From Fibrobacter sp. UWB16 (lineage in GTDB: Bacteria > Fibrobacterota > Fibrobacteria > Fibrobacterales > Fibrobacteraceae): a DNA stretch of 64,000 nt. The notes beneath the pieces are model-generated. The model did not search any database, was not told the DNA's origin, and was given only the letters and a program-made list of their open reading frames with translations. Both the position numbers and the translations under genes were made by a program. This document shows, piece after piece, positions 18,211-36,827 of this stretch (positions within the stretch are counted from its first letter, which is position 1; the number at the start of each line of letters is the position of its first letter). Location: the NCBI RefSeq assembly GCF_900215325.1, contig NZ_OCMS01000002.1, positions 992,001 through 1,056,000 on the forward strand. The letters run 5' to 3'.

Positions 18211-18507
18211 TTATGCAGGAACAAAAGTTTTGATTTTCTCAAGTTCCTCTGCCAATTCAATTTTTAGATTGCGAATATCAATATCGTCTTGTAGCGAGAT
18301 GAAATAATCATCAGATACTCCAAAGAACTTGGCTAATCTTAAAGACGTATCGACAGTAATCCTTCTACGGTCATGAAGAATATCTTGAATCCTAGAAATG
18401 GGAACATTTATAGCCTGAGCGACCTTGTAAGCGGACAACCCCATAGGAATCAAAAATTCTTCGTTCAATATTTCTCCGATAGTCGGTGTTTCAATATGCT
18501 TGTTCAT
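18211..18507 (-). CDS. higA: HigA-type antitoxin
   Basis: 98 residues with the VapI/HigA layout: HIETPTIGEILNEEFLIPMGLSAYKVAQAINVPISRIQDILHDRRRITVDTSLRLAKFFG, a complete XRE helix-turn-helix that starts with the family-typical GEIL-EEFL-P-GLS segment. It binds the HigB toxin and represses the operon. It lies nine bases after higB. The pair sits between grpE and its partner dnaK and is oriented against them, so it looks like an insertion into the chaperone region. Confidence 0.92.
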   Translation of the reverse strand: MNKHIETPTIGEILNEEFLIPMGLSAYKVAQAINVPISRIQDILHDRRRITVDTSLRLAKFFGVSDDYFISLQDDIDIRNLKIELAEELEKIKTFVPA

Positions 18508-18516
18508 AACTAACTC

Positions 18517-18798
18517 CTAGTGGTAGTCTACAATTTCAACATTGTAAAAGTGACCATCATACATTCTAAAACATATACGCCATTGGTCATTTATGCGAAT
18601 AGAGTATTGCCCAATTCTATCTCCATGTAACTGTTCCAAACGATTGTTTGGCGGAATACGTAAATCATCAAGACATTTGGCATTATCTATCATCATTAAT
18701 TTTCTTAAAGCAACCTTTTGAATCGTGTTTGGCAATCGCCTTGAAAATTCCTGGTTATAGATGAGCTCTGAGTCTTTATCTGCAAAGCTTTTTATCAT
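18517..18798 (-). CDS. higB: HigB-type toxin (RelE superfamily)
   Basis: 93 residues with the canonical HigB pattern: MIKSFADKDSELIYN start, central NNRLEQLHGDRIGQYSIRINDQWRICFR and end YNVEIVDYH. HigB enzymes cleave mRNA on the ribosome. A good sigma-70 promoter (TTGACG-N17-TATATT) ends only five bases before the ATG, so the transcript should be leaderless or nearly so. No Shine-Dalgarno site is visible, in agreement. Confidence 0.92.
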   Translation of the reverse strand: MIKSFADKDSELIYNQEFSRRLPNTIQKVALRKLMMIDNAKCLDDLRIPPNNRLEQLHGDRIGQYSIRINDQWRICFRMYDGHFYNVEIVDYH

Positions 18799-27666: not shown

Positions 27667-29838
27667 CTAATTTTTATGCTTTTTAGATTTGCTACCGTAG
27701 TAACCGTAACCGTAACCGTAACCGTAACCGTAACCGTAACCGTAACCGTGTCTGTGTTCGCAATGGTTCAACACAAAAGCCTTGGGTTTATCACAATAGC
27801 GTTCCAAGGTATGTAAGGATTCCTTAATAGAATCCATAGAATGGCGACCATAATGCAACACAACGAGTGCAAAATCGATCAACGGGCAAATCATGTATGC
27901 ATCAGTCACCAAATTCGTCGGCGGAGTATCAATAATAATTGCATCGTACTGCGGACGAATTTCGTCAATCAACTTCTTAAGCATGTCACCACGCAATAGT
28001 TCAAATGCAGAAAGCGTAAACTTGCCAGATTCCAAGATATCAAGATTCGGAAGGTTCGGACTCGAGATTTTAGCATTTTCAAAAGCGACCTTACCCATAA
28101 GAACATCGGCAAGGCCAACCTTCGTAAAGCGGCACGTGGCTTTTCTCATATCAGCATCAATAAACAAGGTCTTCTTACCGACCATCGCAAAAGTAGCAGC
28201 GAGGTTCGTCGAGATAAAGCTCTTACCGACACCAGGCGTAATACCAGAAACCATAATCACCTGATGTTCCTTATTCATATTGAAAGAGAAATCAATCGCC
28301 GTAAGAATCGAACGAATCGATTCGCTAAGAGGATCATCAGGATCTGTTTGGACATGAGTTTTTCTTGTCTTTCTAAATTTCAAGTTCAAGCCGGTATCAG
28401 GATATTGAGGAACCTTTGCAAGCACGCTTGTATTCGTTTCACGTTCAATTTCCGTAACACTGCGAACACCGTTATGCATCATACGCAAGAGGAATACCAA
28501 GAGTACTCCAAGCATAAACGAAGCAGCCACAGAGCAGATAATGATGTTCATTTTCTTCGGCTTGCTCGGAGCTCCGTTAATCTGCGCGAAGTCAACTATA
28601 CGGACATTGCCTACTTCACCAGCACGCACAACACGCAACTGCTGAATGTTATTCAACATAGTCGTATAAATTTCATTATTGACCGCCACATCTTCCTTCA
28701 AACGAGCGACTTCCTGTTGCGTCAAAGGCATTTTTTCAGCTGTTTTTTTCAACTTGGCAAGTTCAGCCCTCAAACGATTCTGCTGACGAATGAGCGTCTG
28801 AACGCTCGGATGTTCTTCCTTAAACAAACGCATGGCAGCTTGTTTCTGCTGTTCCAAATCCAAAATTTGTCTCTGGATTTCACTTTCCTTGTTCAAGTGA
28901 GCGTGCGTTTCGCCCGTCATGTCCACAGACCCGATGCTGTAACGGTAATCGGCTAAAATCTTTTCGACACTGTCAAGTTTAGCCTTCACACCAGGGAGCT
29001 GCTTTTCCAAGAATTCGAGAGTCTTAGCGGCTTCGGCGCTGCGCATTTCAACGTTTTGACGCAAGTATGTCTTTGCCACCGTATTCAAGATCGATGCAGC
29101 CCTATCAGGATAGCGATGGTTGAAGCTAGCCTCGATAATGCCACTTTTCTTGCCCTTTTCGGCAACTTTAAGTCCACCCTTCAATGCGGCAATAGCACCA
29201 AGCATACCCGATTGAGAAAGAACAAATTCCTGCCCCGGCTGAGCAAGCATCTTTGAAACATGAATATCGAGAGTATCGCCAGCGTAGGGAGCCTTGTACA
29301 ATTCACCGACTTTACCTTCCAAGATGACCTGTTCTTCAGGCGAAATGACTTCGTATGTATTTTCATCGACGGCTCTAGCCATCCACTTTTCTGCACGAGC
29401 GAGCGTAGGAATATAGAGGGAATCCAAGTCCATGCGCCCCTCTTTGTGCGTAAAGCGGTCAACGGCACCAACAGGCGTTGCATTGAAGCAAAGGCGTTCG
29501 GCTTCAACCACATAGCTCAACACCATGCGGCTCTTGATAAGTTCGATTTCAGCATCGGCCGGGCTTGCCACATCAAGGATGGAGCCCATCTCACCCATAG
29601 CCTTCGTCGCGTTACCACCCTTCGCGTCGATTTGCAACAAGATGTCGCTAGTGTACTGCGGACGTAGCCAGTTTGCAATCGAAAATCCGACAAGGCCGCC
29701 CACCAGAATGAACAGCAATAACGTGAATTTCTTTTCCCAAAGGATTTGCATTGCTTCAAGCAACGTAATTGTATTGTTGTCTGGAGGCAACTGAATTGTA
29801 GCTTGGCTAACAACTTTTTTTTCTTCTTTTTCAGCCAT
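27667..29838 (-). CDS. Wzc-like polysaccharide copolymerase / tyrosine autokinase
   Basis: 723 residues. A Wzz-type domain has transmembrane segments at about 36-56 and 435-458, with long coiled-coil helices (about 215-390) between them in the periplasm. The C-terminal BY-kinase domain has Walker A (SGITPGVGKS), Walker A' (TLFIDADMRK) and Walker B (DAIIIDTPP). The extreme C-terminus is a tyrosine cluster of eight Gly-Tyr repeats plus YGSKSKKHKN, encoded by eight perfect copies of a hexanucleotide. In Wzc such tyrosines are autophosphorylated and their phosphorylation controls polymer length and export. It lies 12 bases after the aminotransferase gene. A change in repeat number would change the tail without a frameshift. 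Confidence 0.93.
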   Translation of the reverse strand: MAEKEEKKVVSQATIQLPPDNNTITLLEAMQILWEKKFTLLLFILVGGLVGFSIANWLRPQYTSDILLQIDAKGGNATKAMGEMGSILDVASPADAEIELIKSRMVLSYVVEAERLCFNATPVGAVDRFTHKEGRMDLDSLYIPTLARAEKWMARAVDENTYEVISPEEQVILEGKVGELYKAPYAGDTLDIHVSKMLAQPGQEFVLSQSGMLGAIAALKGGLKVAEKGKKSGIIEASFNHRYPDRAASILNTVAKTYLRQNVEMRSAEAAKTLEFLEKQLPGVKAKLDSVEKILADYRYSIGSVDMTGETHAHLNKESEIQRQILDLEQQKQAAMRLFKEEHPSVQTLIRQQNRLRAELAKLKKTAEKMPLTQQEVARLKEDVAVNNEIYTTMLNNIQQLRVVRAGEVGNVRIVDFAQINGAPSKPKKMNIIICSVAASFMLGVLLVFLLRMMHNGVRSVTEIERETNTSVLAKVPQYPDTGLNLKFRKTRKTHVQTDPDDPLSESIRSILTAIDFSFNMNKEHQVIMVSGITPGVGKSFISTNLAATFAMVGKKTLFIDADMRKATCRFTKVGLADVLMGKVAFENAKISSPNLPNLDILESGKFTLSAFELLRGDMLKKLIDEIRPQYDAIIIDTPPTNLVTDAYMICPLIDFALVVLHYGRHSMDSIKESLHTLERYCDKPKAFVLNHCEHRHGYGYGYGYGYGYGYGYYGSKSKKHKN
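27701..27748. repeat. Hexanucleotide tandem repeat (TAACCG)8
   Basis: Eight perfect copies, 48 bp, within the 3' end of the Wzc-like gene, encoding (Gly-Tyr)8 on the minus strand. Slippage would add or remove Gly-Tyr pairs in frame. Confidence 0.95.
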
Positions 29839-29850
29839 ACGTTATCCTAA

Positions 29851-31122
29851 TTAAGTAAAGCAATTACGAATTGTTTGAATAATAATGTCCTGCTGTTCGG
29901 GTGTCATCTTGTTGTCACTCGGCAAGCAAAGGCCACGTTCAAAAATATCAGCACCAACGTCTTCGCATCCACCTGCAATATAAGCATTCGTACGAGCACG
30001 GCCGTTGCCTTGAACCGTGATAAACGGATTCATGCGGTAAATCGGTTGCATATGCATCGGCTTCCAGATTGGGCGTCCTTCGGCATTAATCTCAGCAATC
30101 TTTTCGAGGATTTCAGTCGGGCAGCTCTTGCCCTTTTCATGAATATAAAGACAATCCGTTTCACCGCGGACCTGTTTGCACATGGCGTCCTTGTCAATAA
30201 TCAGGCAACTCAGCCAATAGTTCGGTTCGCTATTCTTTTCGTCAAACGGATTCATCTGCACAGGAAGCCCACGAAGCCCCTCACGGTAACGTTCGTAAAT
30301 AGCCTTTTTCTGGGCAATATGCTCTTCAAGATAAGGCATCTGTCCACGCACAACACCTGCAATCACATTGCTCATGCGGTAATTGTAGCCAACTTCTTCA
30401 TGCTGGTACCAAGAGGCTGCTTCACGGGATTGCGTACTCCACTTGCGAACTTTGTCTGCATCATCCTTGCTATCCGTAAGGAACATGCCACCACTTGAAC
30501 CAGTAATAATCTTATTTCCATTAAAGCTGATAGCGCTATAATCGCCAAACATGCCGGTTTGTACGCCTTTATATGTAGCGCCAAAACTTTCTGCGGCATC
30601 CTCGATCATCAGTGCGCCATGCTTTTTGCAAACAGAACGGAGTTCATCTACCTTGCCCGGTGTGCCGTACAAATGAGCCACGACCACAAGGCGAACATTG
30701 GGATAAATTTCAAAAGCCTTTTCCAGAGCCACAGGATCCATATTCCAGGTCTCTCGCTCCGTATCAATAAAAACGGCTTCACCATTTTCGTATGCAACAG
30801 GATTGACAGTCGCATCAAAGGTCATGTCACTACAAAAGACCTTGTGTCCGCGTAAAGACCCCTCGCCCGTCTTGGACATTCCATAAAGGGCTTCACCAGC
30901 AAGTTTGGTGCAAAGGTGGAGCGCGGCAGTACCTGCGCTAAGAGCAACAGCATACTTACAGCCAACCTTTTCGGCAACAAGACGTTCAACTTCATTGATG
31001 TTTTTACCAACAGTACTCATCCAGTTGGTTTCGTACGCTTCGGTCACGTACTTGATTTCATCGCCATGCATCGTCGGGCTGCTAAGCCAAACCTTATTTT
31101 CAAATCGAGTCATTAAAGCCAT
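29851..31122 (-). CDS. DegT/DnrJ/EryC1/StrS-type sugar aminotransferase
   Basis: 423 residues of the PLP-dependent nucleotide-sugar aminotransferase family. Hallmarks are SAGTAALHLCTKLAG (cofactor phosphate site), DAAESFGATYKGVQTG and the PLP lysine Lys204 in ISFNGNKIITGSSGGM. These enzymes aminate a keto-sugar made by a 4,6-dehydratase such as the CapD-like protein encoded upstream; the product would be an aminodeoxy sugar for surface polysaccharide. The start may be ATG 31122 or ATG 31113 (MTRFENK), which fits the family better; neither has a strong Shine-Dalgarno. It forms a unit with the kinase gene downstream and is separated from ompA by a terminator. Confidence 0.9.
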   Translation of the reverse strand: MALMTRFENKVWLSSPTMHGDEIKYVTEAYETNWMSTVGKNINEVERLVAEKVGCKYAVALSAGTAALHLCTKLAGEALYGMSKTGEGSLRGHKVFCSDMTFDATVNPVAYENGEAVFIDTERETWNMDPVALEKAFEIYPNVRLVVVAHLYGTPGKVDELRSVCKKHGALMIEDAAESFGATYKGVQTGMFGDYSAISFNGNKIITGSSGGMFLTDSKDDADKVRKWSTQSREAASWYQHEEVGYNYRMSNVIAGVVRGQMPYLEEHIAQKKAIYERYREGLRGLPVQMNPFDEKNSEPNYWLSCLIIDKDAMCKQVRGETDCLYIHEKGKSCPTEILEKIAEINAEGRPIWKPMHMQPIYRMNPFITVQGNGRARTNAYIAGGCEDVGADIFERGLCLPSDNKMTPEQQDIIIQTIRNCFT

Positions 31123-31271: not shown

Positions 31272-33248
31272 TTACTTTGCAAAAGGAACGAGTTCTACGC
31301 GACGGTTTTGGGCACGGCCAGCAGCATCACCGTTATCGGCGATCGGCTTGGACGGACCATAACCCACAGCACGCAAGCGGTTGCTATTCACACCGCGCTT
31401 TTCGAGATAAGCGACAACAGCCTGAGCACGAGATTCAGAGAGCTTCTGATTCTTAGCATCAGAGCCCTTGTTATCGGTATGGCCCTGAACTTCGAGATTT
31501 GCTTCCGGAATCTTGTTCATAAGATCGGCAATGTCGTTAAGAGTGCTATAGCTGTTCTTGGTGAGCTTTGCAGAACCCGTCTTAAACTGAATACCCTTCT
31601 TAAGCTGATCAAGGTCTTCCTTCTTATTGATCGGGCAGCCTTCACCATCAACACGGACACCCGGAAGTGTATTCGGGCACTTGTCGATAATATCGGCAAC
31701 ACCATCCTTATCGAAGTCCGGCAAGCAACCAGTCGAGTCTACAGCATGGCCAGCCGGAGTACCCGGGCACTTATCCTTAAAGTCTGCTATGCCATCCTTA
31801 TCGCTATCAAGCATGCAGCCGTTCGGGCCAACTTCAGCACCGCGTTGGGTGTTCGGGCACTTGTCGAGGTAATCGGCAACGCCATCCTTGTCAAAGTCCA
31901 TCGGGCAACCCGTAGAATCCACAGGAATGCCGGCCGGAGTGTTCGGGCACTTGTCAAGGTTGTCAGCAACGCCATCCTTATCAAAGTCAAGCATGCAACC
32001 CGTAGAATCCACAGAAATACCGGCAGCCGTATTCGGGCACTTGTCGCTTATATTAGGAATACCGTCGTTGTCTGTATCAACACGGGCGAGAGAGTCAGCA
32101 ATAGCTCTTTCACGAGCAAGTTTTGCATCATCAATCGGGCAACCTTCAGCATCGACCTTTACGCTGGCTTCGGTACGAGCGCACTTGTCTTCGCTATCCG
32201 GGATGCCATCGCCATCGGAATCTACCGGCTTACCAGCAGCATCAAACTTGAAGCTCAAGAGGGCAGAACCGGAAATAAGGGGAACGCCGGTATAGCCATA
32301 CTTGGCCTTGACACCTCTCTGGCCCTGATAGTAGATGGTATGATCCTTACCATACTTGATATCAGCATGGTGATCGAAACCACTCTGGAAGAAACGGGCA
32401 GCAAAGTCCACGCCAAAAGCAAAATCAATATCATACGGGAGGTGGAAACGGAAACCCGGAGTGATGAGCATCGGGTCAACAAGCGGGTCGAAGGAGTAAC
32501 GACCGTTATCCTGCAAGCGCATTTCGCCAGAGAATTCCACAAACGGAGTCATCCAGGATGTGGCGTTCCAGTTCAAGCCCGTGCTATAGACGAGCGTCTG
32601 AGTCAAGTTATAGCTAGCCGGAGAAACATAGCTTGCCGCCAAGTTCCACACAATCGGAGCACCAACCTTGTTGAAGTCGAACGTGAATGCGAGACCCGCA
32701 GCAAAAGCCCACCTATCAGCAGTAAACGGATGCGTATAGCTGCTACCATCCAAATACCAGGCATGACGGGGACGCACACCGGCGCTTTCTTCACCCGTCG
32801 GAACATAGAGGTCAAGCATCAAGGCCATGCTATAGACGCCAGCCGATGCAAACGGGAGACCGATCTTTGCAAAGACATCCAAGTCACCGCGGCTAGTCGT
32901 CCACATATTTGCCATTCCACCCCACTTGGAATTGGCATGTTCATAATAAAGCGGAAGTGACATACCGACATCAATGAAATCCAGGACACCAACTTCTACA
33001 AAGACGTTGCCTGAAAGAGAAGCATCAGCATCATTAAATGCGTACCTCTTCCCCTTTACTTCATAGATACCGCCACGAGACAAACCCCAGGAGCCAAACG
33101 TAAGATTTCCGCTTGCACCGAAGTTGACTTGCCACTGACCAAGGGTCTTTGCATTGATTTCATGCAGGCCCTCCGAGCCACCCAGCATTCCAGCCTGTGC
33201 AAAAGCTAGAGTACTAGATAACAAACCTAGAGTGATGATCTTTTTCAT
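31272..33248 (-). CDS. OmpA-family outer membrane protein with thrombospondin type 3 repeats
   Basis: 658 residues. Signal peptide MKKIITLGLLSSTLAFAQA. The N-terminal half (about 20-335) alternates short strands typical of an outer membrane beta-barrel. Six calcium-binding TSP3-type repeats follow (about 345-535), with the pattern DxDxDGIxDxxDKCP and a terminal Cys pair in each. The OmpA C-terminal domain (about 545-658) has LEVQGHTDNKG and LSESRAQAVVAYLEKRGV, which bind peptidoglycan. It links the outer membrane to the wall across a long calcium-stiffened spacer. RBS AAGGAT precedes the ATG. It sits inside the polysaccharide region but has its own terminator. Confidence 0.93.
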   Translation of the reverse strand: MKKIITLGLLSSTLAFAQAGMLGGSEGLHEINAKTLGQWQVNFGASGNLTFGSWGLSRGGIYEVKGKRYAFNDADASLSGNVFVEVGVLDFIDVGMSLPLYYEHANSKWGGMANMWTTSRGDLDVFAKIGLPFASAGVYSMALMLDLYVPTGEESAGVRPRHAWYLDGSSYTHPFTADRWAFAAGLAFTFDFNKVGAPIVWNLAASYVSPASYNLTQTLVYSTGLNWNATSWMTPFVEFSGEMRLQDNGRYSFDPLVDPMLITPGFRFHLPYDIDFAFGVDFAARFFQSGFDHHADIKYGKDHTIYYQGQRGVKAKYGYTGVPLISGSALLSFKFDAAGKPVDSDGDGIPDSEDKCARTEASVKVDAEGCPIDDAKLARERAIADSLARVDTDNDGIPNISDKCPNTAAGISVDSTGCMLDFDKDGVADNLDKCPNTPAGIPVDSTGCPMDFDKDGVADYLDKCPNTQRGAEVGPNGCMLDSDKDGIADFKDKCPGTPAGHAVDSTGCLPDFDKDGVADIIDKCPNTLPGVRVDGEGCPINKKEDLDQLKKGIQFKTGSAKLTKNSYSTLNDIADLMNKIPEANLEVQGHTDNKGSDAKNQKLSESRAQAVVAYLEKRGVNSNRLRAVGYGPSKPIADNGDAAGRAQNRRVELVPFAK

Positions 33249-33280: not shown

Positions 33281-35245
33281 TTAAGACTTTTGTTCCACGG
33301 GTTCAGACTTCTTTAAAATTGCACTGTTGAACTTTTCAGGAGTCGTGAACGTCGGGACAATTTCGTGCAAAGCGCGAATAGCGATTTCAACATCGTTTTC
33401 TGAAGCCGCGCTCTTAAGCTTCCACAGTTCATTGATGAACTTAGAAGTATCAATATCGATTTGCTTGCCAATGAAGATAAGCTTGTTCTTTGTCTTCTTC
33501 AAACCTTCTTCGTTCATCAGGAGCTCTTCCTTAATCTTTTCCCCAGGACGGAGCCCCGTGAACTTGATCGGAACATCCTTGTACGGAACCTTTCCATACA
33601 TACGGATCAAGTTTTCTGCAAGCGTCACAATCTTTACCGGCATGCCCATATCGAGCACAAAGATTTCACCACCATGAGCGATACTAGCCGCTTCGAGCAC
33701 AAGGCTCACAGCTTCAGGAATCGTCATGAAGTAACGAATGATTTCCGGGTGTGTAACCGTCACAGGCTTGCCCTGTTCAATCTGGCGTTTGAAAAGAGGA
33801 ATCACGCTACCATTTGAACCAAGCACATTGCCAAAGCGAGTCACAACAAATTCCGTATTACTATCCTTCTGCATGGACATAAAGCGGACAATCATTTCGC
33901 AGCAGCGCTTGGAAGCTCCCATGACATTTGTCGGGTTCACCGCCTTGTCGGTACTGATCATCACAAACTTTTTCACATTGTTGAACATGGCAAGCGTCGC
34001 AACGTTAAACGTACCAATAACGTTGTTCTTAATCGCTTCCATCGGATTGTTTTCCATCAGTGGCACATGCTTATGAGCGGCAGCATGGAAAATCACTTCA
34101 GGATTGTAGGTCTTGAAAATTTGGTTCATGCGGAAATAGTCACGGACACTTGCGATAAGAGTCACAAGGTTCAAAGACTTTCCGTATTCCATCACCAGTT
34201 CTTGCTGGATATCGTAAGCGTTATTTTCGTAAATATCGACAATAATAATTTGTTTAGGATTATACTTTGCAATCTGACGAACAAGTTCACTACCGATACT
34301 ACCACCACCGCCAGTCACCATACAAACTTTGTTTTCGATATAGGCACGGATGTCCTTGTTATCGAACTTGATAGGATCGCGACCAAGTAAATCTTCGACC
34401 TTGATATCACGGATTTGCGTTGCAAAATTAGTCGAGCCATCGCCAACATTGGAAGAATCCAAAAGAGTACCAACAAAAGGAAGAACCTTCACCGGAAGTC
34501 CGGTCTTACCACACAAGTCCATGATGACTTGACGGTCTTTGGGAGGGCAACTCGGAATCGAAAAAAGAATCTGCTCAATATTTTCTTGCTTTGCAATTTT
34601 AGGAATGTCACTTGTCGTGCCTGCAACAAGAACCCCTTCGAACGGTTTCCCGATTTTAAAGCGGTCATCATCAATGAGGCAAACAGGATTGATTTTTGCA
34701 GCTTCCGAAGTAGAAAGCCCCTTTTCCGCATCCTTGGTGCTGTTCTTGATTTCATCGAGCAAAAGCTTAGTCGCATTACCGGCACCGATAATCATGGTGC
34801 GCTTTTTCATCGCTTCACGGTGACCCGTGTTAATAATCGAAATAAAGGCATTACGGAACATGTAGCGGAAAAGACACACGCCAAAACTCGCCATCAAAGC
34901 TTGGACAAGGCCAAATTCCCAATAAAGCTTTCCACGAACCAAATAGAAGAAAAAATAAGTTACGACAAGGCCTACAAAAACGCCTTTACAGCAGCTTAAA
35001 AAGTCATAGCGGTTAAGATAGCGCCACAGCTTATTGTAAGCTCCAAAAAAGAGAAGCCCACTAAAGCACATAATGACACACAAAAAGAAAATGGCAAAAA
35101 GGTCAGCACGTCCAATCGGTTCTGCATATAATGGGAGTAGGTAATTTGCAAATAAACCAGCAACAACAACAATAAAAGCATCCGCCAACGCCAATACACG
35201 TTTGCGAATCCTAAAACTAGTGAACAATCCCATCAATTTGGACAT
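33281..35245 (-). CDS. Membrane-bound nucleotide-sugar 4,6-dehydratase (CapD/FlaA1/WbpM type)
   Basis: About 654 residues from the ATG at 35245. Four to five transmembrane helices (about 20-135) are followed by a CoA-binding-like Rossmann domain (about 150-280) and an extended SDR catalytic domain starting near 308 with the NAD motif VTGGGGSIGSELVRQ. STDKAVNPTNVMGASKR holds the catalytic region of the WbpM/CapD subfamily, where Met replaces the usual Tyr of Y-X3-K. It removes water from UDP-GlcNAc or a similar sugar at C4-C6, providing the keto-sugar for the downstream aminotransferase. A TTG two codons upstream is an alternative start. Confidence 0.92.
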   Translation of the reverse strand: MSKLMGLFTSFRIRKRVLALADAFIVVVAGLFANYLLPLYAEPIGRADLFAIFFLCVIMCFSGLLFFGAYNKLWRYLNRYDFLSCCKGVFVGLVVTYFFFYLVRGKLYWEFGLVQALMASFGVCLFRYMFRNAFISIINTGHREAMKKRTMIIGAGNATKLLLDEIKNSTKDAEKGLSTSEAAKINPVCLIDDDRFKIGKPFEGVLVAGTTSDIPKIAKQENIEQILFSIPSCPPKDRQVIMDLCGKTGLPVKVLPFVGTLLDSSNVGDGSTNFATQIRDIKVEDLLGRDPIKFDNKDIRAYIENKVCMVTGGGGSIGSELVRQIAKYNPKQIIIVDIYENNAYDIQQELVMEYGKSLNLVTLIASVRDYFRMNQIFKTYNPEVIFHAAAHKHVPLMENNPMEAIKNNVIGTFNVATLAMFNNVKKFVMISTDKAVNPTNVMGASKRCCEMIVRFMSMQKDSNTEFVVTRFGNVLGSNGSVIPLFKRQIEQGKPVTVTHPEIIRYFMTIPEAVSLVLEAASIAHGGEIFVLDMGMPVKIVTLAENLIRMYGKVPYKDVPIKFTGLRPGEKIKEELLMNEEGLKKTKNKLIFIGKQIDIDTSKFINELWKLKSAASENDVEIAIRALHEIVPTFTTPEKFNSAILKKSEPVEQKS

Positions 35246-35319
35246 AGTCAAGCCCTACTTTTTTAGTTCAGAAAAGTCTTAAAAAACGGTTTCTTATGTT
35301 ATAAGATAATTACAAAAGA

Positions 35320-36810
35320 CTACCAAAACAAGGTAGTACGTACAAAAATGGCCTTTATTTCGCCTAAAATGAGCTCTAATTCATAAGAAGCATGATATCC
35401 ACTATAGTTTACAGACGGAGCAATTGTGTATTGGAGCGGAGCTTTATCGGTAAATTTTTTGCGAACGGTCTTATACGGGTCATTGATATCGCTACCTCGA
35501 TCAATACCTTTCCAAAGCCACTTGTTGTGCAAACCAAAGAAGATACTTGCTGAATGGTTCCAGAAGAGGCGGCTGTAAAGAGTCCAGTCAATGGCAAGCG
35601 AGTTCGGACCATTCGGATTCCCTAGCGGGAGTCCAAGGTGCGCCATCTGAGCCTGAGCCGTGTCGTAATGGCAATAGGTATAAGGTTCAACACGCGCAAT
35701 TTCTGCGATAGTTCCGAGCTGTAAAAGTTTACCATTTACTTCCATGTCATGAGCCACCTGAAAGCCAAGCATTGCGGCCCAGCGGTTATTGCTGTAACGA
35801 TTTTGATAAACGGCATAAGGCGATTCCATGTCATCCAAGAAGAATTCACCATAGACACGAGCCAGCTTGAAGAGCTGCACATTAAAATCCACCGCCAAGG
35901 CACCGTTGTTTACGCGTTCGGAATAATTCCCCTTTTCAATGAAAAGCGGAGCTACCGGAACAAAAAGCCAAGGCTTATTTTCGTTGTAAAGAATCTGAAG
36001 TTCAGAAATACCAAAGGTCACATTTTTGAGAGCTAGCTCATAACGGTGAGCATAAAGATTGCGATCGTTCAGGTTGTCTTTGCTATAGCTCCAGGAATTC
36101 ACACGAAGATCCGCATACACACTATAAATTCGTAACGGTCCAAATGTAAGGTCGAGCGAAAGCATGTTGTACGGGAGCGCAAACTGGTTCAGCGAGAGGT
36201 TGTTGTAGTACCCCGGCCCCCAGTGTAGCACATCACGAGCAAGCTGCAAACGAGCCCATGCATAGTTGAGAGCCAAGTGAGCGCGGTAACGTGCAAAGCT
36301 CACATAGTCAATTCCTCCATCGCCACGATCCTTGGACTGCACGTCAAAAACTTCGTGGTCGTAACTCTTGGGCTTCTTGGCGGCATGCCCTTCAGAGTAA
36401 ATACGCGCATCAAGATCAAAGTCGAGGGAATCAGCAAAGCCGCGGATAAAAAGTCCACCATCAATAGCTGGCCATATAGTATCGCCAAGAGCCGAAGACG
36501 ATTTGTAATCAATACCGAGGATTGGACTTACCGCAATAGCGAACTTATGCGAAGACGCGCTATCACTTTCAAAAAACGCCATCGCATTTCCATGATTCTT
36601 GTAAAAATCCTTCTGGAACGTTGTATCGCGACGTGGATAAATAAAGAAGTGGCGGCCATCGTCTACAGTCTGTCTATGATACTCAAAAAGCATCGGAGCA
36701 TAATCGAGCCCGCGCAGGTTACGAGTGCGTTCAGAACTGATAACTGGCGAACGACCTGTTTCTGCAAAAACAATCGTTGCTAAAATAAGACTAGCGAAAA
36801 AAGCTTTCAT
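35320..36810 (-). CDS. Wzi-like capsule assembly outer membrane protein
   Basis: About 496 residues from ATG 36810, preceded by GGAGGGGAG. Signal peptide MKAFFASLILATIVFA. The rest is rich in amphipathic strands with aromatic ends, ending FVRTTLFW with a C-terminal aromatic residue as in outer membrane barrels. The phrase LARDVLHWGPGYYNNLSL is characteristic of the capsule assembly Wzi family. In E. coli Wzi is an 18-strand porin-lectin that anchors capsule at the surface. With the kinase, dehydratase and aminotransferase it defines a polysaccharide export and attachment unit. It starts 17 bases after coaX, probably in the same transcript. Confidence 0.85.
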   Translation of the reverse strand: MKAFFASLILATIVFAETGRSPVISSERTRNLRGLDYAPMLFEYHRQTVDDGRHFFIYPRRDTTFQKDFYKNHGNAMAFFESDSASSHKFAIAVSPILGIDYKSSSALGDTIWPAIDGGLFIRGFADSLDFDLDARIYSEGHAAKKPKSYDHEVFDVQSKDRGDGGIDYVSFARYRAHLALNYAWARLQLARDVLHWGPGYYNNLSLNQFALPYNMLSLDLTFGPLRIYSVYADLRVNSWSYSKDNLNDRNLYAHRYELALKNVTFGISELQILYNENKPWLFVPVAPLFIEKGNYSERVNNGALAVDFNVQLFKLARVYGEFFLDDMESPYAVYQNRYSNNRWAAMLGFQVAHDMEVNGKLLQLGTIAEIARVEPYTYCHYDTAQAQMAHLGLPLGNPNGPNSLAIDWTLYSRLFWNHSASIFFGLHNKWLWKGIDRGSDINDPYKTVRKKFTDKAPLQYTIAPSVNYSGYHASYELELILGEIKAIFVRTTLFW

Positions 36811-36827
36811 TCTCCCCTCCATCAAAA

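Follow-up and report, generated by a model that had tools for sequence, protein, structure and literature searches.

Wzc-type kinases time polysaccharide polymerisation in many bacteria, and whether the number of tyrosines in their tails acts as the setting of that timer is an open question. The question is raised in a concrete form by a kinase gene in the 64,000-nucleotide stretch of Fibrobacter sp. UWB16 DNA analysed here (the window), in which a tandem hexanucleotide encodes the tyrosine tail. The locus offers a natural length series, with arrays of 5 and 8 units and, across the genus, tails of 1-10 YxY steps. As the repeat unit would correspond to one ratchet step in this series, the tyrosine-number question becomes directly testable.

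A kinase with a repeat-encoded tyrosine tail

The gene (Table 1) is assigned to the Wzc-type BY-kinases because of its Pfam domains (PF02706, PF23607, PF13807 and PF13614, all above cut-off), its match to the PRK11519 Wzc profile (E=1.7e-116, under the equivalog cut-off) and the alignment of residues 52-721 with Escherichia coli Wzc (7nhr; E=3.4e-92). A Wzz-type periplasmic domain, a GNVR region and a BY-kinase domain are combined in a single chain, as expected of a PCP-2a protein. Using the BY-kinase consensus for the Walker motifs (PMC12220298), we located motif A at residue 532 (GITPGVGKS), A' at 558 (LFIDADMRK) and B at 634 (IIIDTPP). Two transmembrane segments around the periplasmic domain are predicted from hydropathy maxima near residues 38-58 and 430-452, and nine tyrosines lie beyond residue 690, forming a tyrosine-rich tail. 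Similarity to the solved Wzc structure is sufficient to assign the fold; the tail is probably flexible.

Table 1. Features of the kinase locus, in window coordinates
Feature	Position	Strand	Basis or remark
Intrinsic-terminator-like hairpin, then T run, past the kinase stop codon	27603..27632	-	RNA fold
Wzc-type BY-kinase (PCP-2a), 723 aa: Wzz, GNVR and AAA_31 kinase domains, tyrosine tail	27667..29838	-	Pfam, Wzc profile, 7nhr match
Post-array tail: Tyr Gly Ser and Lys-rich end (YGSKSKKHKN)	27670..27699	-	DNA identical in sister species
Pure hexanucleotide array (GGTTAC)8 / (Gly-Tyr)8	27700..27747	-	Residues 698-713; sequence, translation, repeat finder
Conserved pre-array junction NHCEHRH	27748..27768	-	NHCEH/NHCER-type motif starts most recovered Fibrobacter tails
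DegT/LegC-family sugar aminotransferase, immediately upstream of kinase	29851..31122	-	PF01041 E=3.5e-71; best NCBIfam is LegC family, below cut-off
OmpA-family protein with thrombospondin type 3 repeats, conserved neighbour	31272..33248	-	PF00691, PF02412; synteny
WbpM/PseB-like membrane nucleotide-sugar 4,6-dehydratase, conserved neighbour	33281..35251	-	PF02719 E=2.6e-120; synteny
Conserved neighbour of 501 aa, predicted to be secreted or located in the outer membrane; resembles Wzi in position only	35320..36825	-	Synteny

Read directly, the minus-strand sequence of the array is (GGTTAC)8, which codes for (Gly-Tyr)8, and the translated C terminus runs ...NHCEHRH(GY)8YGSKSKKHKN to the stop codon. 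On the plus strand the array appears as GTAACC x8 at 27700-27747 or, equivalently, TAACCG x8 at 27701-27748; Tandem Repeats Finder reported 27700-27749 (period 6, 8.3 copies, 100% match). A preliminary description of this DNA had proposed eight perfect TAACCG copies encoding (Gly-Tyr)8 in the tail of a Wzc-like kinase, which the sequence, the repeat finder, the translation, the domains and the 7nhr match all bear out. The span it assigned to the repeat, 27667-27760, does take in the stop codon and the greater part of the tail, but the repeat proper is confined to the narrower interval of Table 1.

The exact pattern (GGTTAC)4 occurs at no other site in the 3.56 Mb genome. Moreover, the array was the sole perfect short repeat detected in 143.6 kb of that genome, comprising the window and four other stretches (counting units of 2 or more bases present in at least 3.5 copies and spanning 20 bases or more, and homopolymers of 20 or more), which gives no indication that contingency repeats are abundant in this organism.

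One explanation for the purity of the array is that GGT and TAC are favoured in the tail for translation or mRNA reasons, uniformity being incidental. Both are the commonest codons for their residue in the kinase body (GGT for 19 of 37 Gly, TAC for 9 of 16 Tyr), yet even at these frequencies the probability of an 8-unit run is about 5e-5. Taking the 26 long ORFs of the window as background (GGT 34%, TAC 60%), the probability that all 16 codons of a (GY)8 tract are GGT or TAC is 3.4e-6, and that any single hexamer is used throughout is 3.1e-5; the codon pool from other Fibrobacter (GY)n tails gives 2.4e-5. The codon purity of the array is unlikely to be due to chance (P about 3e-6 to 3e-5). Codon choice would further have to accommodate the mixed codons that encode the same peptide in relatives and paralogues, and it leaves unexplained why two arrays with identical flanks differ by 18 bp in length (see below). 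We also considered RNA structure as the cause of the repeat and rejected it, as most of the fold signal (z -2.7 over 211 nt) comes from the terminator hairpin. Taken together, codon choice is a very improbable explanation.

Tail length between species and across the genus

Relatives were compared using one genome per species, with G000 denoting this genome (kinase L001) and G008 that of a sister species (kinase L005). A scan of genome contigs found no relative nearer than G008, whose kinase is 97% identical to L001 in protein and 95% in DNA. The tail of L005 is encoded by (GGTTAC)5 and that of L001 by (GGTTAC)8; these three units, amounting to 18 bp in frame, are the sole tail difference. The flanks are identical over the 51 upstream bases shown and over the 33 bases of tail end and stop codon, and alignment of the 640-residue kinase body revealed zero internal gaps. 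The second kinase paralogue (L002 in G000, L129 in G008) has the same tail protein, NKCERHAGYGYGSYGYYGYHKKY, in both genomes.

The array is therefore a pure short tandem repeat within a surface-structure gene whose unit number varies between close relatives (8 versus 5, in different species-level genomes) against constant flanks, two features by which contingency loci are recognized. A length change through in-frame slippage between the two species is well supported by these alignments, slippage itself being the mechanism we infer. As the preliminary description had anticipated, the six-base unit preserves the frame, so that slips would gain or lose phosphorylation sites with the gene intact. 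Repeats are open to miscounting, and an assembly or sequencing artefact in the unit number would produce the same picture; however, the 50-bp array is shorter than a common read length, its flanks are clean and both genomes are rated 100% complete, which makes an artefact scarcely credible. The shared purity of the two arrays is not significant across the G000/G008 split: the rest of the gene, with differences at 5 of its 51 Gly/Tyr codons, predicts about 1.3 codon changes, against 0 seen (P about 0.27). At a DNA divergence of about 5%, one change of three units can arise without a high rate of slippage.

The intergenic DNA between the kinase and the GH30 gene pairs L001 with L006 and L005 with L007, opposite to kinase similarity, and this grouping suggests recombination near the tail.

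Kinase relatives were recovered from all 80 genus genomes, 24 of which contain a run of four or more Gly-Tyr codon pairs, and every tract examined closely lies in a BY-kinase tail. At the level of the phylum, tracts of at least five Gly-Tyr occur in 2 of 41 genera. Pure arrays were found in G000 and G008 only, while the other 26 tracts of at least four GY units use mixed codons, with identical runs of three or fewer. On this codon evidence, the pure array is of recent origin and restricted to the lineage of these two species. In the other tails, identical neighbouring hexamers were seen 14 times against 21 expected, a weak signal from related sequences (P 0.03-0.05). Impure (GY)7-14 tails in other species indicate that long tails are possible without slippage-prone DNA.

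Across 83 kinases, the tail contains 5-12 tyrosines and the longest YxY ladder (two-residue spacing) has 1-10 steps, so tail length is evolutionarily labile. The tails of L006, L007 and L008, at 90-92% protein identity, are interrupted, and L006 carries a different tandem duplication, of an 18-bp unit (GGTTACTACGGCTATTAC), at the same tail position; these comparisons mark the kinase tail as a region of fast in-frame length change. Codon-interrupted tails in close relatives had been named beforehand as evidence against an adjustable tail. Such tails are indeed present at 90-92% identity, but not in the nearest relative at 97%.

Other Gly-Tyr tails and repeats were encountered during these searches. 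Two divergent BY-kinases, L128 (G048:C8) and L127 (G014:C16), have different Gly-Tyr tails, and the G048 tail, with 14 Gly-Tyr pairs in succession in mixed codons, is the genus maximum found. A separate Fibrobacter kinase paralogue (L118, L119, L122, L123, L121 and L124) carries SYGYGYGYGYGYG...YRYRYG as its tail, and its ladders reach 10 tyrosines in strict two-residue spacing. Matches to (GGTTAC)5 in viral contigs were set aside, as most fall in short Gly-Tyr/Ser/Asp dipeptide-repeat frames unrelated to kinases; in contigs L049-L067, short frames of Gly-Tyr, Gly-Ser or Gly-Asp dipeptide repeats are encoded by hexamer repeats. The kinase-tail junction was searched for in the viral contigs and not found.

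The array might simply be a neutral microsatellite in a tolerant tail, where enough tyrosines suffice and slippage expansion leads to slow drift in length with no selected switching. The broad variation of tyrosine number and ladder length across a genus that retains the gene is in keeping with this, as are the dispensability of any single tyrosine in E. coli Wzc (PMC8285477) and the lack of further short-repeat loci in the 143.6 kb. However, of the 20 pairs of kinases whose bodies are 97% or more identical, L001/L005 is the only one in which tyrosine number differs. These pairs form about seven clusters besides L001/L005 and, since L041/L108 represent one and the same genome, about six independent control clusters; that all of these hold their tyrosine number exactly suggests some constraint. 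In addition, regulation of polymerisation by Wzc is known to reside in its tyrosine content. Neutral drift falls a little short of an even prospect.

The polysaccharide locus

The order 501-aa protein - dehydratase - OmpA-family protein - (aminotransferase) - kinase - GH30 is conserved across species. The 501-aa protein has zero Pfam or NCBIfam matches, and, judging from its position, it may act at the outer membrane in the assembly of polysaccharide. A LegC-like aminotransferase is also present upstream of the kinase in L039 and as a fragment in L040, and there was no hit in L034-L038, the flanking genes being conserved; this gene appears to have been gained and lost at a single spot. In the OmpA-family gene, 90-bp tandem repeats (31672-32045) encode the thrombospondin type 3 repeats, and its product is possibly another length-variable surface protein. 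Elsewhere in the window, two small adjoining genes on the minus strand (18211-18798) resemble, by eye, a HigBA-type toxin-antitoxin pair.

Wza, Wzb, Wzx and Wzy are absent from the kinase locus, where the neighbours are the aminotransferase, the OmpA-family protein, the dehydratase, the 501-aa protein and CoaX. The locus thereby differs from a Group 1-type capsule locus, in which wza, wzb, wzx, wzy and glycosyltransferase genes lie beside wzc. A Wzb-Wza pair is encoded on contig C5 (L074:9559-11147), between dTDP-sugar and mannose-nucleotide (ManC-type) genes; the Wzb is a low-molecular-weight tyrosine phosphatase beside wza, with no Wzc there. The kinase matches of the genome are on contigs other than C5, and the low-molecular-weight phosphatase genes of the genome, including the one on C5, lie away from the kinase locus. 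As the C5 pair lacks a Wzc and the Wzc of the window lacks a phosphatase and Wza, a split export system is likely, in which the kinase would pair in trans with the C5 Wzb-Wza. We refer to its polymer as a surface or secreted polysaccharide rather than as a capsule.

Tail length as a candidate timer

Wzc tails are phosphorylated sequentially from the C to the N terminus by the neighbouring subunit, with the tyrosine two residues upstream (i-2) held in a pocket and then fed to the active site (PMC11986026). The E. coli octamer dissociates upon the fourth phosphorylation, and N711Y, a tyrosine that fills a gap in the YxY spacing, brought back CPS in a 3YE mutant (PMC11986026). No single tyrosine of E. 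coli Wzc is essential or sufficient, and fewer tyrosines result in less phosphorylation (PMC8285477). It is the extent of phosphorylation that matters rather than any individual tyrosine (PMC11986026, PMC8285477), which lends partial support to the preliminary description, where tail tyrosine number was linked to polysaccharide output.

On the basis of these reports, we propose the following. In one small Fibrobacter lineage, the tyrosine cluster would have come under the coding of a young, pure hexanucleotide repeat, in which replication slippage may add or remove Gly-Tyr units in frame, leaving G000 with 8 and its sister species with 5. Each unit supplies one tyrosine two residues from the next, presumably one step of the YxY ladder. 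Because the Gly-Tyr unit holds the YxY register exactly, each six-base unit is a candidate ratchet step, a plausible role by analogy with E. coli Wzc, where the ladder is threaded through the active site of the neighbouring subunit from the C to the N terminus until the octamer falls apart. With more units, the tail would be phosphorylated more times before the octamer dissociates and polymerisation would last longer in each cycle, which could in turn shift polysaccharide amount or chain length. Overall, it is probable that the tyrosine cluster of this Wzc-type BY-kinase is encoded by a young slippage-prone array whose added units would prolong the polymerisation phase.

The effect of added units would depend on what ends the cycle. 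If dissociation is set by how far the tail is drawn in, more units would lengthen the cycle; if it is set by a fixed phosphate count, extra units would be silent. The sequence is compatible with either model. Tyrosines beyond those needed for the four phosphorylations that precede dissociation in E. coli Wzc might have no added function. Of the ratchet-pocket residues in E. coli K30 Wzc, P536 aligns with Pro535 and E675 with Ser670, next to Asp669, so that conservation of the pocket is partial and uncertain.

In the literature searched, mostly outside subscription journals, we found no description of a repeat-encoded, length-variable BY-kinase tail, and no report of phase variation in Fibrobacter, a gut cellulose degrader. 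The closest precedents are the capsule glycosyltransferase Gtr76 of Acinetobacter baumannii, where in-frame 6-bp slippage in a TAAATT x4 repeat removed two residues and changed phage sensitivity (PMC9247103), and Klebsiella, where spontaneous Wzc variants tune capsule chain length (PMC10597399). Both lend weight to the reading given in the preliminary description, a true contingency locus with frequent, reversible changes in unit number and graded surface polysaccharide within populations, as do the pure 8-unit, in-frame 6-bp array within a regulatory tail and the length difference in the closest pair. However, the array is restricted to 2 of 80 genus genomes, in a comparison of one genome per species, and a contingency locus is rather unlikely. 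Graded phase variation is a possible, testable hypothesis and not a result. A slippage-tuned timer, with the hexamer as one ratchet step and slippage setting the number of phosphorylations before octamer dissociation, would give populations with graded chain lengths; we consider this full scheme unlikely. If switching does occur, it would act as a rheostat instead of an on/off phase-variation switch, in a rumen-type Fibrobacter.

The kinase resembles E. coli Wzc in its domain order, Walker motifs, two predicted transmembrane segments and YxY-spaced C-terminal tyrosines. In contrast to the short, irregular E. coli ladder (Y708, 713, 715 and 717), the Fibrobacter kinase has eight tyrosines spaced exactly two residues apart, for which a pure DNA repeat codes, and its locus is without wza or wzb. 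In E. coli and Salmonella mutL, in-frame gain or loss of a hexamer in 6-bp tandem repeats toggles protein function; there the protein is unrelated and the change inactivates, whereas a change in the Fibrobacter tail would tune. The A. baumannii Gtr76 gene shares the hexanucleotide tandem repeat and the in-frame change, but its loss alters a transferase linker, while the Fibrobacter unit would itself be the phosphorylation site (PMC9247103). Finally, Streptococcus pneumoniae CpsD, named in the reference list of PMC4574921, is likewise a capsule-controlling BY-kinase with a repetitive tyrosine tail, (YGX)4, although it belongs to a split two-protein system and its repeat spans three residues.
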